Position numbers and translations under genes: made by a program. Under the pieces are notes generated by a model. It worked only from the letters and a program-made list of their open reading frames with translations. It was not told where the DNA came from and did no database searches. This document shows, piece by piece, positions 5,641-33,012 of a stretch of DNA of 64,000 nt. This DNA is from Mycolicibacterium doricum (GTDB lineage Bacteria; Actinomycetota; Actinomycetes; Mycobacteriales; Mycobacteriaceae), in the NCBI RefSeq assembly GCF_010728155.1, contig NZ_AP022605.1, positions 2,046,001 through 2,110,000 on the forward strand, given 5' to 3'. Each line of letters opens with the position of its first letter. Position 1 is the stretch's first letter.

Positions 5641-5898
5641 ATGAAGACGCTCATAGCACTGGCTGTCGGCGCGCTCGCGGCCGCGGGCATCGCGCTGGCC
5701 AGCGCCGCGCCCGCTCAGGCGGGATGTCAGGGCGGCTGGACACCGTGGGGCGGCGGCACGACATGCGACGGGCCGATCGCCGGCGACGGCACGTTCGAGC
5801 GGTGCGTGACGGCCGGTGCCCTGGGGTTCGGCGGCACCAATTGCTACCTGCTCAACGTGAACAACCTCGGAAACCAGCTCCCGTACGTCGGGCCGTAG
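5641..5898 (+). CDS. Small secreted CDGP-domain protein
   Basis: The 85-residue precursor has a clear Sec signal peptide (MKTLIALAVGALAAAG, hydrophobic core, APAQAG cleavage region near residue 28). The mature part is about 57 residues with four cysteines and the motif TTCDGPIAGDGTFERC, typical of the short mycobacterial CDGP proteins of unknown function. The ATG has AGGAAGG about nine bases upstream. The stop codon lies in the loop of a strong hairpin shared with the convergent apa gene. Confidence 0.8.
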   Translation: MKTLIALAVGALAAAGIALASAAPAQAGCQGGWTPWGGGTTCDGPIAGDGTFERCVTAGALGFGGTNCYLLNVNNLGNQLPYVGP

Positions 5899-5914
5899 CG
5901 GCCCGACGTACGGG
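5880..5914. terminator. Bidirectional hairpin terminator between the CDGP gene and apa
   Basis: A perfect 15-bp stem (CCCGTACGTCGGGCC and its complement) closes a five-base loop, GTAGC, which contains the TAG stop of the CDGP gene. No long U-tract follows on either side, as is common in mycobacteria. It sits between convergent genes and so can end both transcripts. Confidence 0.65.
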
Positions 5915-13431: not shown

Positions 13432-15152
13432 CAGAAGAGAAAATAACGTTGCGCCATCGGCAGTTCGGCGGCCGGCTGCTCCTGCCACACGTCACCGTCG
13501 ATGCGCACGGTGAAGGTGTCCGGATCGACCTCGATGCGGGGCAGCGCGTCGTTGAGTGGCATCTGAGCTTTCCCGACTTGCCGGCACTCCTTGACGGCGA
13601 CGAGCTTTCGTCGGACGTCGAGGCGGTCGGCGAGGCCGTCCTCGACTGCCTGTGGCGAGACGAAATGCACGGACGTCGCCGCGGCGGCGGCATGCGACGC
13701 ACCGAACATCGGGCGCGGCAGCACCGGCTGCGGTGTCGGGATCGACGCGTTGGCATCACCCATGGCGGCCCAGGCGATCATGCCGCCCTTGATGACGGCG
13801 TGCGGGCGGACGCCGAAGAAGGCCGGCTCCCACAGCACGAGGTCGGCGAGCTTGCCCACCTCGACTGAGCCGATCTCGCCGTCGAGGCCGTGCGCGACGG
13901 CCGGGCAGATCGTGTACTTGGCGACGTAGCGGCGGGCGCGCAGGTTGTCGGCACGTCCATCGCCCTCGAGTGTCCCGCGGCGGCGCTTCATGACGTGGGC
14001 GGTCTGCCAGGTGCGCAGCACAACCTCGCCGATCCGGCCCATCGCCTGGGCGTCGCTGCCGATCATCGAGATCGCCCCGATGTCATGCAGCAGGTCCTCG
14101 GCGGCGATGGTCGACGGCCGGATGCGACTCTCGGCGAACGCGAGATCCTCGGGGACGCTGGGGTTGAGATGATGGCACACCATCAGCATGTCGAGGTGTT
14201 CGTCGAGGGTGTTGACGGTGTGCGGTCGGGTGGGGTTGGTGGAGCTGGGCAGCACGTTGGGATGGGAGGCGACGGTGATGATGTCGGGTGCGTGGCCGCC
14301 GCCGGCGCCTTCGGTGTGGTAGGCGTGGATCGACCGGCCCTTGATGGCCGCCAGGGTGTCCTCGACGAAGGCCATCTCGTTGAGCGTGTCGGTGTGGATG
14401 TTGACCTGCACGCCCGCCGCGTCGGCGACGGTGAGACACGCGTCGATCGCCGCGGGTGTGGTGCCCCAATCCTCGTGCAGCTTGAACCCAGCTGCGCCAC
14501 CGCGCAATTGTTCCCACAAAGCACCGGGGCTGACGGTGTTCCCCTTGCCGAGAAGCGCGACGTTGAGCGGCCAGGTGTCCAGCGCCTCGAGCATGCGGGC
14601 CAGGTGCCAGGACCCCGGTGTCACGGTGGTCGCCTTGCTGCCCTCCGCCGGCCCGGTGCCGCCGGCGACGATCGTCGTGATGCCGCCACCGACGGCTTCC
14701 TCCATGATCTGCGGGCAGATCAGGTGGACGTGGCAGTCGATGGCGCCCGCCGTGAGAATGCGCCCGTTGCCTGCGACGACCTCGGTCGAGGGTCCGACGA
14801 CCAGATCGGGATGGACGCCGTCCATGATGTCGGGGTTGCCGGCCTTGCCGATCGCGACGATGCGCCCGTCGCGGATGCCTATGTCGGCCTTGATGATCCC
14901 CCAGTGGTCGAGCACGACGGCGCCGGTGATGACGGTGTCGGGGGCGCCGTCGGCACGGGTGGCCCGCGACTGTCCCATCGACTCGCGCAGCACCTTGCCG
15001 CCACCGAACACGGCCTCGTCGCCGGCGAGCCCGGGACCGCCGCTGCGGTCTTCGGTGATCTCGATGACCAGGTCGGTGTCGGCCAACCGGATGCGGTCGC
15101 CGGTCGTGGGCCCGTACAGCGCTGTGTAGCGGTCGCGTGACAGGCTGCTCAT
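13431..15152 (-). CDS. ureC: Urease alpha subunit UreC
   Basis: The 573-residue catalytic subunit hydrolyses urea to ammonia and carbamate at a di-nickel centre. Visible ligands are the HxH pair H141/H143 (DCHVHL), the lysine to be carbamylated (K224 in GFKLHEDWG), the nearby HEDWG histidine, the [12 protein letters not shown] segment and the flap motif MVCHHL with its active-site Cys and His. All are intact, so the enzyme should be active. The ATG overlaps the ureB stop as ATGA. Confidence 0.97.
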
Positions 15153-15833: not shown

Positions 15834-16238
15834 TTAGGCGTCGGCGATGTTCTGCAACCGCACTTGACCGCGCGCGACCATCTTGTCGTTCTCGTCGGTG
15901 ATGGTGACCAGCCACAGCTGTTGACGACGACCGCGGTGGATCGGGGTGGATACCGCGGTGACGGTGCCCGACGAGATGGCGCGCAGGAAGTCGGTGTTGT
16001 TGTTGACCCCGACGACCGTGCCGCCGCCGCTCGCCGTCAGCCAGGCGTGGCCGGAGACGCTCGCGAGGCTCTCGACGATTGCGCAGTAGACGCCACCGTG
16101 CACGATGCCCCACGGCTGCAACAGTTTGTCGTGGATCGTCAGCTGCGCCCGGCTGCCGTCGGGGGTGATGTCGAGATAGGTGAGTCCAAGTTCTGAGTCG
16201 TAGCCCTCGCCGAGGCTGTCGGGTACCTGAGTCGTCAC
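15834..16238 (-). CDS. Hotdog-fold thioesterase (PaaI/YdiI-like, Rv1847-type)
   Basis: The 134-residue protein has the hotdog thioesterase core. [17 protein letters not shown] carries the HGG motif, and [16 protein letters not shown] is the usual later strand with the conserved N-x-D-F-L pattern. It should hydrolyse an acyl-CoA or aroyl-CoA thioester, with the substrate unknown. The GTG at 16238 gives a normal length; no ATG is near. It lies directly before ureA, and after the small RNA locus at 16291-16387. Confidence 0.85.
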
Positions 16239-16290
16239 AGCAGATGTGTCTACACCGCGGGGCGTTGTGGATCTGACAGGGGTTGGACGA

Positions 16291-16387
16291 AAAGCGGGCG
16301 GGCCCCGCACGTGATGTGCGGGGCCCGCCCCTGGAGTGGACCGGGGGTCTCTGCAGCCCTCAGGACGCCGGCACGGTCCGGTGGAAC
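16291..16387 (-). ncRNA. mrsI: Candidate MrsI small RNA (iron-sparing sRNA)
   Basis: On the minus strand an IdeR-like box (16397-16415) and a TATTGT -10-like element (about 16394-16399) are followed by about 100 non-coding bases. These end in a perfect 15-bp hairpin and a short TTTT run. In M. tuberculosis the IdeR-controlled sRNA MrsI (ncRv11846) lies in the same place, between the blaI gene Rv1846c and the thioesterase gene Rv1847, and in the same direction as Rv1847. Position, strand, IdeR control and size all fit. The 5' end is estimated from the -10 element. Confidence 0.68.
16296..16330 (-). terminator. Intrinsic terminator of the small RNA locus
   Basis: A perfect 15-bp GC-rich stem (GGGCGGGCCCCGCAC and its complement) has a five-base loop. 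On the minus strand it is followed by GCTTTTCG. It closes the small RNA and would also stop read-through from the upstream iron gene before the thioesterase-urease operon. Confidence 0.8.
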
Positions 16388-16396
16388 GTGACCACA

Positions 16397-16415
16397 ATAG
16401 GCAAGGCTGGCCTAA
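16397..16415 (-). promoter_or_regulatory. IdeR-like iron box at the small RNA promoter
   Basis: ATAGGCAAGGCTGGCCTAA matches the mycobacterial IdeR consensus TTAGGTTAGGCTAACCTAA at 14 of 19 positions, with both half-site cores (TAGG, CCTAA) kept. It overlaps the stop codon of the upstream gene and covers the -10 region of the small RNA, so iron-loaded IdeR would block its transcription. Confidence 0.65.
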
Positions 16416-17185
16416 TTGTGCAAGCCCACCCCTCCGGCGCCTCTGACGGCGCCGCGCACCGGCAGGCCGAAACGGACGAGCGCGTCGAGCACGGCCTGTC
16501 CTCGGCGCATGCTGGTCCACTCGCTGGAACCGGCCAGCAGCGGCACCTGGGTGGCCGCACCGACGACAGCCCCGCCGACGAGGTGCCACATCGACGGGAG
16601 GGACATCGCGCCGTCACCGATGGCGGCCAACTCGGCGAACAGAGGTGCGAGCGCGCGATGGCTGCGGTGGGCGACCCATGTGGTCAGCGCGGCCTCGCTG
16701 GGCAGCCCGACGATGCCCTGAGGCGCACCGAGGCGCATCCGGGGCCGGTCGTCGAAATGGGGATCGTCGGCAAGCGCGCGCAGGGTGGGGTCGACGACGC
16801 CGACCCAGTCGATGGCGCCCTCAGAGTCGACGTGGACCCACAGGTTTTCCAGCCCGGTATCCCACGCCCGGCCCTCGAGGACCAGCAGCGGGACGACGCG
16901 ACCGAGGACGACATGGGCAAGGGTGGCGGCCAACTGCTGGGCAACGGCGGCGCGGTTGTCGGTCTCGGCGGAGGCGCGGTCGAACATCGCCTGCAGACGA
17001 CCCCCGGTGAGCGCGTCTGTCAGTGGCCACCACCGGCGCCGGGACACGTCGCCCATGACGGCGACGCCGTATACCCGCGGGCATTCGGGGTAGAGCTCAC
17101 GCAGTCGGCGGCTCGACTCGTGCAGCGGCAGTGTTCGCTTGATGGCCATGCCCGCGATCAGCGGGTCCTCGATCAGTACGGTCAC
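16412..17185 (-). CDS. Putative siderophore-iron reductase (FhuF/IucA-like), iron-regulated
   Basis: The 257-residue protein has segments such as AATLAHVVLGRVVPLLVLEG followed by RAWDTGLENLWVHVD, which recall the FhuF/IucA-IucC helper fold used to bind siderophores and reduce their iron. It lacks the C-terminal cysteine cluster that holds the 2Fe-2S centre in classical FhuF, so reductase activity is uncertain. The GTG start has GGGAGGTG just upstream. An IdeR-like box at 17206-17224 precedes it, which supports a role in iron supply. I recognise the family only tentatively. Confidence 0.55.
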   Translation of the reverse strand: MTVLIEDPLIAGMAIKRTLPLHESSRRLRELYPECPRVYGVAVMGDVSRRRWWPLTDALTGGRLQAMFDRASAETDNRAAVAQQLAATLAHVVLGRVVPLLVLEGRAWDTGLENLWVHVDSEGAIDWVGVVDPTLRALADDPHFDDRPRMRLGAPQGIVGLPSEAALTTWVAHRSHRALAPLFAELAAIGDGAMSLPSMWHLVGGAVVGAATQVPLLAGSSEWTSMRRGQAVLDALVRFGLPVRGAVRGAGGVGLHN

Positions 17186-17205: not shown

Positions 17206-17224
17206 TAAGGATAGGCTCACTATA
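17206..17224 (-). promoter_or_regulatory. IdeR-like iron box upstream of the putative iron reductase
   Basis: TAAGGATAGGCTCACTATA matches the IdeR consensus at 13 of 19 positions, including the central TAGGCT. It lies 20 bp before the GTG start on the minus strand, a repressor position. With the box at 16397-16415 it brackets this gene. Confidence 0.55.
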
Positions 17225-17379: not shown

Positions 17380-17796
17380 ATGGCCAAGTTGACGCGTCTT
17401 GGTGAGCTCGAGCGTGAGGTGATGGACCACCTGTGGTCGGCCCACGAGCCGCAGACTGTGCGCCAGGTGCACGAGGCGCTCGCCGCTCGACGCGATCTGG
17501 CCTACACCACGATCATGACGGTGCTGCAGCGACTGGCGAAGAAGAGTCTCGTGGTGCAGCACCGCGACGACCGTGCCCACCGCTACGCGCCCACGCATGG
17601 TCGCGATGAACTGGTGGCCGGGCTGATGGTGGACGCCCTCGATCAGGCTGCCGACTCCGGCAGCCGGGAGGCCGCTCTGGTGCACTTCGTCGAGCGGGTC
17701 GGCGCCGATGAGGCCGCCGCGCTGCGCCGCGCGTTGGCCGAACTAGAGGGCAAGCAAGGTCTCACCAAGCCCGCTGGCGGTACGGGCACTTCCTGA
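17380..17796 (+). CDS. blaI: BlaI-family transcriptional repressor
   Basis: The 138-residue winged-helix protein has the BlaI/MecI pattern: LGELEREVMDHLWSAHEP, then the recognition helix in DLAYTTIMTVLQRLAKKSL and a C-terminal dimerisation helix rich in Ala and Glu. It should repress genes linked to beta-lactam or cell-wall stress and be inactivated by its membrane metalloprotease partner, which follows after 14 bp. The Rv1846c-Rv1845c pair of M. tuberculosis has the same arrangement. The ATG has GACGGAAAG upstream. Confidence 0.92.
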   Translation: MAKLTRLGELEREVMDHLWSAHEPQTVRQVHEALAARRDLAYTTIMTVLQRLAKKSLVVQHRDDRAHRYAPTHGRDELVAGLMVDALDQAADSGSREAALVHFVERVGADEAAALRRALAELEGKQGLTKPAGGTGTS

Positions 17797-32756: not shown

Positions 32757-32985
32757 ACGATCCCTCTCCCTCTGTCGTCGACCCGGGCGGGCGCCTGAGA
32801 GATTCGGCCGCGGCTCGAGCTGTTCGAGCACCGCGCCTTTCCCCATGGGCGGGCGGACCGCTGGTGTCCACCGCTTTCCAGAGGCATCGAGGCCGTGCGC
32901 GGTCCGGGGTGCCTGAGAGGTTGACGGAGAGGTGTTGCTCCTTCGGCGCCCGTGACTGGCGATCACGGAGCTCTCCCGCACACGG
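32757..32985 (-). promoter_or_regulatory. Tandem glycine riboswitch upstream of gcvB
   Basis: Reading the minus strand, aptamer 1 starts GGGAGAGCTCC and has GCCGAAGGAGCAA, then CTCTCCG and CTCTCAGGCACC. Aptamer 2 has ATGGGGAAAGGCGC, CGAATCTCTCAGGCGCC and the closing GACAGAGGGAGAGG. The repeated CTCTCAGGC and GAAGGAGCAA blocks are the hallmark of the two-aptamer gcvT element. It ends about 35 bases before the GTG, so control of translation start or early termination is possible. Confidence 0.9.
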
Positions 32986-33012
32986 GCGATGCGTGTCCAG
33001 TTTAGCGGGCGA

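Follow-up and report, generated by a model that had tools for sequence, protein, structure and literature searches.

Between the blaI gene and an Rv1847-type thioesterase gene of Mycolicibacterium doricum, about a hundred non-coding bases are framed by a promoter-like and a terminator-like element on the minus strand. Do they constitute a small RNA (sRNA) gene, and is this RNA MrsI? The gene was considered within a window of 64,000 nucleotides, the whole stretch of DNA analysed, and was then compared across the genus and beyond. MrsI (ncRv11846) of M. tuberculosis and M. smegmatis reportedly goes back to Gerrick et al. in 2018.

Promoter, fold and terminator of the putative RNA

On the minus strand of the window, an IdeR-like box within a promoter, about 99 non-coding bases and an intrinsic terminator follow one another (Table 1). 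The sequence-only reading of this stretch had already singled out the 14/19 box, the -10-like TATTGT and the perfect 15-bp terminator with its TTTT, and all three are borne out here: the box outscores every other IdeR match in the window, TATTGT is preceded by TTGCAC, and every pair of the terminator stem covaries. The 18-nt spacer between TTGCAC and TATTGT contains most of the IdeR box; a simple promoter scan of the window did not report this promoter. The overlap of the promoter with the end of the upstream gene was also read correctly, as the stop codon of the FhuF-like gene lies inside it.

Table 1. Features on and around the putative sRNA gene (window coordinates)
Feature	Positions	Strand	Basis
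sRNA (putative MrsI orthologue), ~99 nt	16291..16389	-	R1 covariance match of 105 bits and fold z; ends inferred
Hairpin 1	16338..16379	-	covariation and own fold
7-nt apical loop AGGGCUG, presumed seed	16354..16360	-	invariant among 32 sequences; complement 5' of bfrA in many relatives
Intrinsic terminator, perfect 15-bp stem 16330-16296, then GCTTTT	16290..16330	-	15/15 pairs covary
IdeR-like box within promoter	16397..16415	-	14/19, top match in 64 kb
-35-like TTGCAC	16418..16423	-	direct reading; TTGC or TTGACA there in most relatives shown
-10-like TATTGT	16394..16399	-	direct reading
FhuF-like gene, 257 aa, GTG start inferred	16412..17185	-	orthologues, Pfam, predicted structure
Second IdeR-like box, 5' of FhuF-like gene	17206..17224	-	13/19, second best in 64 kb
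Rv1847-type hotdog thioesterase	15834..16238	-	PDB 3s4k (Rv1847) E 7.2e-51; Pfam 4HBT
BlaI-type repressor gene	17380..17796	+	Pfam Penicillinase_R E 1.4e-29

Scored against the IdeR consensus, the box agrees at 14 of 19 positions in one reading and 13 in the other, and it is the sole match of at least 14 in the window. Ten Markov copies of the window yielded a single match of at least 14 in total and 0-2 matches of at least 13 per copy; because chance alone provides the latter, the box by itself is not decisive, and its weight comes from its conservation among loci. A match of at least 13/19 is present in 58 of 59 named Mycobacterium loci (the 59th scored 0, its upstream sequence being missing for scanning) versus 1 of 530 random stretches, and, within the 102 nt upstream of the RNA, in all 32 scored loci from other genera versus 5 of 289 random stretches.

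The 99-nt RNA folds into two hairpins with a z-score of -4.0, equalled by none of 200 shuffles. A DNA search with 15834-16450 found matches in 49 of 61 genomes, many spanning the thioesterase gene only; the RNA core was present in 26 of the 30 returned loci, which were aligned, folded and built into the covariance model R1. This model matches the window RNA with 105 bits (G000:2062282-2062388), and no Rfam family matches the 16291-16415 stretch at the gathering score. In alignment A4, 15 loci from other genera join 17 rows taken from the 26 of A1, and alignment A5 was made without L114, L026 and L278 and with L019 trimmed. Across 32 aligned sequences the loop AGGGCUG shows zero variation, 95.8% of the stem cells are paired and 23 of 29 pairs show two-sided changes. 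None of 500 shuffles equalled the stems, a test that is inflated because the sequences are related; the slid-alignment control, which retains this relatedness, gave 39-49% paired. In the helix closing the loop, the middle pair changes from U-A to C-G in genus g23 and to A-U in L011 and L030.

Other features were recorded in the window. An Rfam match to the 5' ureB sRNA at 14699-14990 (+), opposite the urease alpha gene, scored 40.8 against a cut-off of 40 and probably reflects conserved coding sequence. A Glycine riboswitch lies at 32890-32988 (-) with 56.8 bits (Rfam), and the longest perfect inverted repeat that the scan turned up in the window (5880-5914; 16 bp, 3-nt loop) has no T run.

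Distribution of the RNA and its neighbours

The sequence-only reading had named comparison with other mycobacterial intergenic regions and a covariance model among the ways to check the assignment to MrsI. This comparison favours it: the stems covary, and R1 has a match in 340 of the 396 Mycobacterium genomes, including 322 of the 361 good ones. Twenty of the RNA-negative genomes were listed outright, and the other 36 are the remainder of the 396. Second R1 matches in G000, G006, G063, G125 and G260 were rejected as paralogues, being the opposite strand of the same palindromic place; G259 has two extra, weaker matches elsewhere, one of them at a contig end. Among 80 named loci obtained through the Rv1847 chain, 61 carry the RNA, and the 19 that do not include all 11 titled Mycolicibacter. 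Seven RNA-less loci have a CTGAG.GTCTGCTG-like stretch at the expected place, and a loop-like CTGAG.GTCTGCTGCGACCCC lies between blaI and the thioesterase gene at L029:1318, L149:2901, L160:2885 and L171:2895; such loop-like stretches are perhaps relics of a decayed MrsI.

The RNA is not confined to Mycobacterium. An order-wide R1 search (298 genomes) placed all strong matches outside the genus in the same GTDB family, and the family-wide search matched 305 of 401 genomes in 23 of 31 genera, with Mycobacterium contributing 47 by our own count of the listing. Strong matches occur in about 20 other genera; g78 and g86 have weak ones only (E 1e-4 to 7e-4), and no R1 match was found in four g27 genomes of 2.3-2.9 Mb. 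In all 33 loci inspected from other genera, 32 by script and L339 by eye, AGGGCUG sits in its hairpin. Outside the family, R1 matched ten genomes with E-values of 6e-5 to 9e-4, and the two inspected (L284, L285), which show a stem resembling a terminator and lack the loop, were discarded. Full-text searches of an open subset of the literature brought up no report of MrsI outside Mycobacterium, and the founding 2018 study may mention part of this distribution. The accessible part of a Rhodococcus paper describes F6 and a riboswitch, not MrsI.

Neighbouring genes were counted only in loci fetched with the RNA model, 56 from Mycobacterium and 32 from other genera; in L001-L030 and L094-L173, which were fetched through the thioesterase, its adjacency is partly by construction. 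An Rv1847-type thioesterase gene comes next downstream in all 88. In the 56 Mycobacterium loci, among which fast growers are over-represented because the matches were high-scoring, the thioesterase gene always follows in the same direction and blaI always lies upstream in the opposite direction, so that the proposed placement in the same interval and direction as M. tuberculosis MrsI is upheld; a FhuF-like gene is found upstream in 47 and UreA downstream in 49. The corresponding numbers in the 32 other loci are 32 for the thioesterase, 15 for blaI, 20 for the FhuF-like gene (one of them 2.2 kb off) and 8 for UreA. Thus the position beside urease, also pointed out from the sequence, recurs in most of these Mycobacterium loci, but in only a quarter of those from other genera. 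A control-genome search found urease in none of its mycobacteria, and the window's genome carries one more urease gamma gene, a more distant one, at G000:C1:1799130-1799426 (107 versus 158 bits).

Of 61 loci from named species, most of them slow growers, only 5 have the FhuF-like gene upstream; in such species the RNA therefore adjoins blaI, as reported for M. tuberculosis. Pfam FhuF is reached by 6 of 23 orthologues of the FhuF-like protein (best E 6.5e-5) and not by the window copy. Its predicted structure (pLDDT 84) is similar to those of the siderophore synthetases IucC and AlcC, with a likeness to E. coli FhuF that is weaker in E-value (FhuF TM 0.51-0.54); the best E-value among the structure matches is 5.3e-3, with none below 0.001. 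Its last codons and stop at 16412-16423 double as the -35 element and IdeR box. Among fast growers, the C-terminal tail repeatedly ends in LLN or HN; the promoter therefore seems to dictate where the protein ends.

On the other side, a TGTAGACA-like element at 16247-16255 (-), just 5' of the thioesterase start, recurs in 27 of 30 loci as a loose pattern and looks like the promoter of a leaderless thioesterase mRNA. On the thioesterase, the MenI and EntH models score below their cut-offs; siderophore proofreading in the manner of EntH would be in keeping with an iron locus.

Likeness to MrsI and the bfrA site

According to the accessible portions of the published descriptions, MrsI is an RNA of about 100 nt encoded on the plus strand between blaI and Rv1847, with an IdeR site and a terminator, and it has a 7-nt apical loop and represses bfrA through the pairing of a short seed (PMC8628891, PMC11188477, PMC7029489). 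In H37Rv it is placed at 2096766-2096867 (PMC8628891). Compared with these review descriptions, the present locus agrees in interval, direction, length, IdeR box, terminator and 7-nt loop, and the identity put forward by the sequence-only reading holds to that extent. It differs from the MrsI locus in the FhuF-like gene intervening between blaI and the RNA. The loop-complementary site 5' of bfrA, the published MrsI target, is present in many relatives, the bfrA of the window species being without it. The 6C/B11 RNA of actinobacteria, as far as a review covers it, is another small structured mycobacterial RNA; its conserved loops are C-rich, as opposed to AGGGCUG here.

Nine of 17 RNA-positive genomes have CAGCCC, the complement of the loop, 24-29 nt 5' of the bfrA start, and none of nine RNA-negative genomes has it there. 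In several of the positives it extends to CAGCCCTCA, which allows 9 bp with UGAGGGCUG. An additional CAGCCC at -55 to -58 is present in five RNA-positive genomes and one RNA-negative genome. Across the 396 Mycobacterium genomes, the bfrA-site pattern matched in 138, and the reversed pattern, by our own count, in 11. Eleven of the 138 were excluded by eye as non-bfrA, lacking a ribosome-binding site with ATGCAAGG. After this exclusion, the site is found in 125 of 340 RNA-positive versus 2 of 56 RNA-negative genomes (135 versus 3 with the excluded rows retained), with a Fisher p of 4e-8 that overstates independence because the RNA-negatives are largely related or incomplete genomes. The two exceptions are G186, 93% complete, in which no R1 match appeared even with laxer filters, and G367, with a weak R1 match of 31 bits at a locus without GGGCTGC. 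The exact pattern is missing in 215 of the 340 RNA-positive genomes.

Among genomes of other genera that possess a true bfr, five of six from g28 have CAGCCC at -24 to -27, five of six from g29 at -47/-48 and both from g83 at about -50; none of four from g25, three from g94 and one from g88 has it 5' of the gene. Shuffles scoring as well as the loop-bfrA duplex numbered 0 of 200 for G010, 7 for G012 and 166 for G617, which has the hexamer only. The likely ancestral target of MrsI is bfrA. In the window species, no CAGCCC site was found at bfrA (G000:2030743-2031210, about 31 kb off), and its pairing with the loop was no better than that of shuffles (110 of 200 as good). A scan of this genome for loop-complementary sites gave 38 matches versus 18 with the reversed pattern; six of the 38 were translated, with no evident iron gene among them.

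Proposed function, other explanations and significance

The locus combines promoter and terminator elements, a covarying fold, orthology by position, a conserved loop and, in many relatives, a complement of that loop at bfrA. That it is an sRNA gene is near certain, and the sRNA is very likely the orthologue of MrsI. We hold with high confidence that the minus strand of 16291-16415 is the mrsI gene of Mycolicibacterium doricum and that it would work as follows, the steps of transcription, iron control, pairing and its effect being modelled on the published MrsI work. Iron-loaded IdeR would occupy the promoter box and block the sRNA promoter. Under iron scarcity IdeR would no longer block it, and a stable transcript of about 100 nt, ended by its own terminator, would be produced. 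The hairpin 1 loop AGGGCUG would then pair with CAGCCC[U] close to the ribosome-binding site on mRNAs that encode dispensable iron proteins and lower their expression. RyhB of enterobacteria and IsrR of staphylococci are likewise iron-sparing sRNAs, whose repressor family is Fur, unlike IdeR; a repressor-controlled RNA silencing iron-protein mRNAs would be a likeness in working, not a membership.

The constant presence of a thioesterase gene downstream, in the same direction in 56/56 Mycobacterium and 32/32 other-genus loci, would also suit a leader or attenuator of the thioesterase or urease genes, with read-through from the IdeR box when the terminator is bypassed. We find this improbable, as a base-pairing sRNA requires just such a hairpin with a fixed loop and a strong terminator after it, the TGTAGACA-like element suggests that the thioesterase gene has its own promoter, and in L007, L010 and L011 that gene is separated from the RNA by a further reading frame that looks rhodanese-like on inspection and seems to run in the opposite direction. 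Still harder to credit is a mere terminator of the FhuF-like gene beside a chance box, with no separate RNA: the promoter does overlap the end of that gene, and chance IdeR matches of at least 13 do occur in windows of this size, but hairpin 1 covaries, and RNA, box and terminator persist where the FhuF-like gene is missing or elsewhere (9/56 Mycobacterium and 12/32 other-genus loci).

An IdeR-controlled sRNA at the same place may instead act on mRNAs other than those of MrsI, at least in the window species, where the bfrA site is missing and the six translated matches of the genome scan include no clear iron gene. We consider this possible and yet doubtful, since neither the loop nor its flanks have changed, and the choice of targets should therefore be similar to that of MrsI.

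To conclude, we favour MrsI as the reading of this gene, and think it rather probable that MrsI is an ancient, family-wide iron-sparing RNA under IdeR/DtxR control, present in about 20 genera in addition to Mycobacterium and with a fixed place 5' of the Rv1847-type thioesterase gene, its AGGGCUG loop being frozen and bfrA its ancestral target. It would have been lost in the Mycolicibacter lineage along with the bfrA site, and its targets rewired in lineages like that of the window. Few mycobacterial sRNAs have a known regulon, and MrsI is among them; R1 with its invariant loop supplies a seed for target searches. The RNA in other genera opens the circuit to tests in harmless hosts. RNA-positive and RNA-negative genomes form a natural experiment on keeping or losing an iron-sparing circuit together with its bfrA site, and the genome of the window, in which the loop is intact and the bfrA site is gone, is a candidate case of rewiring.
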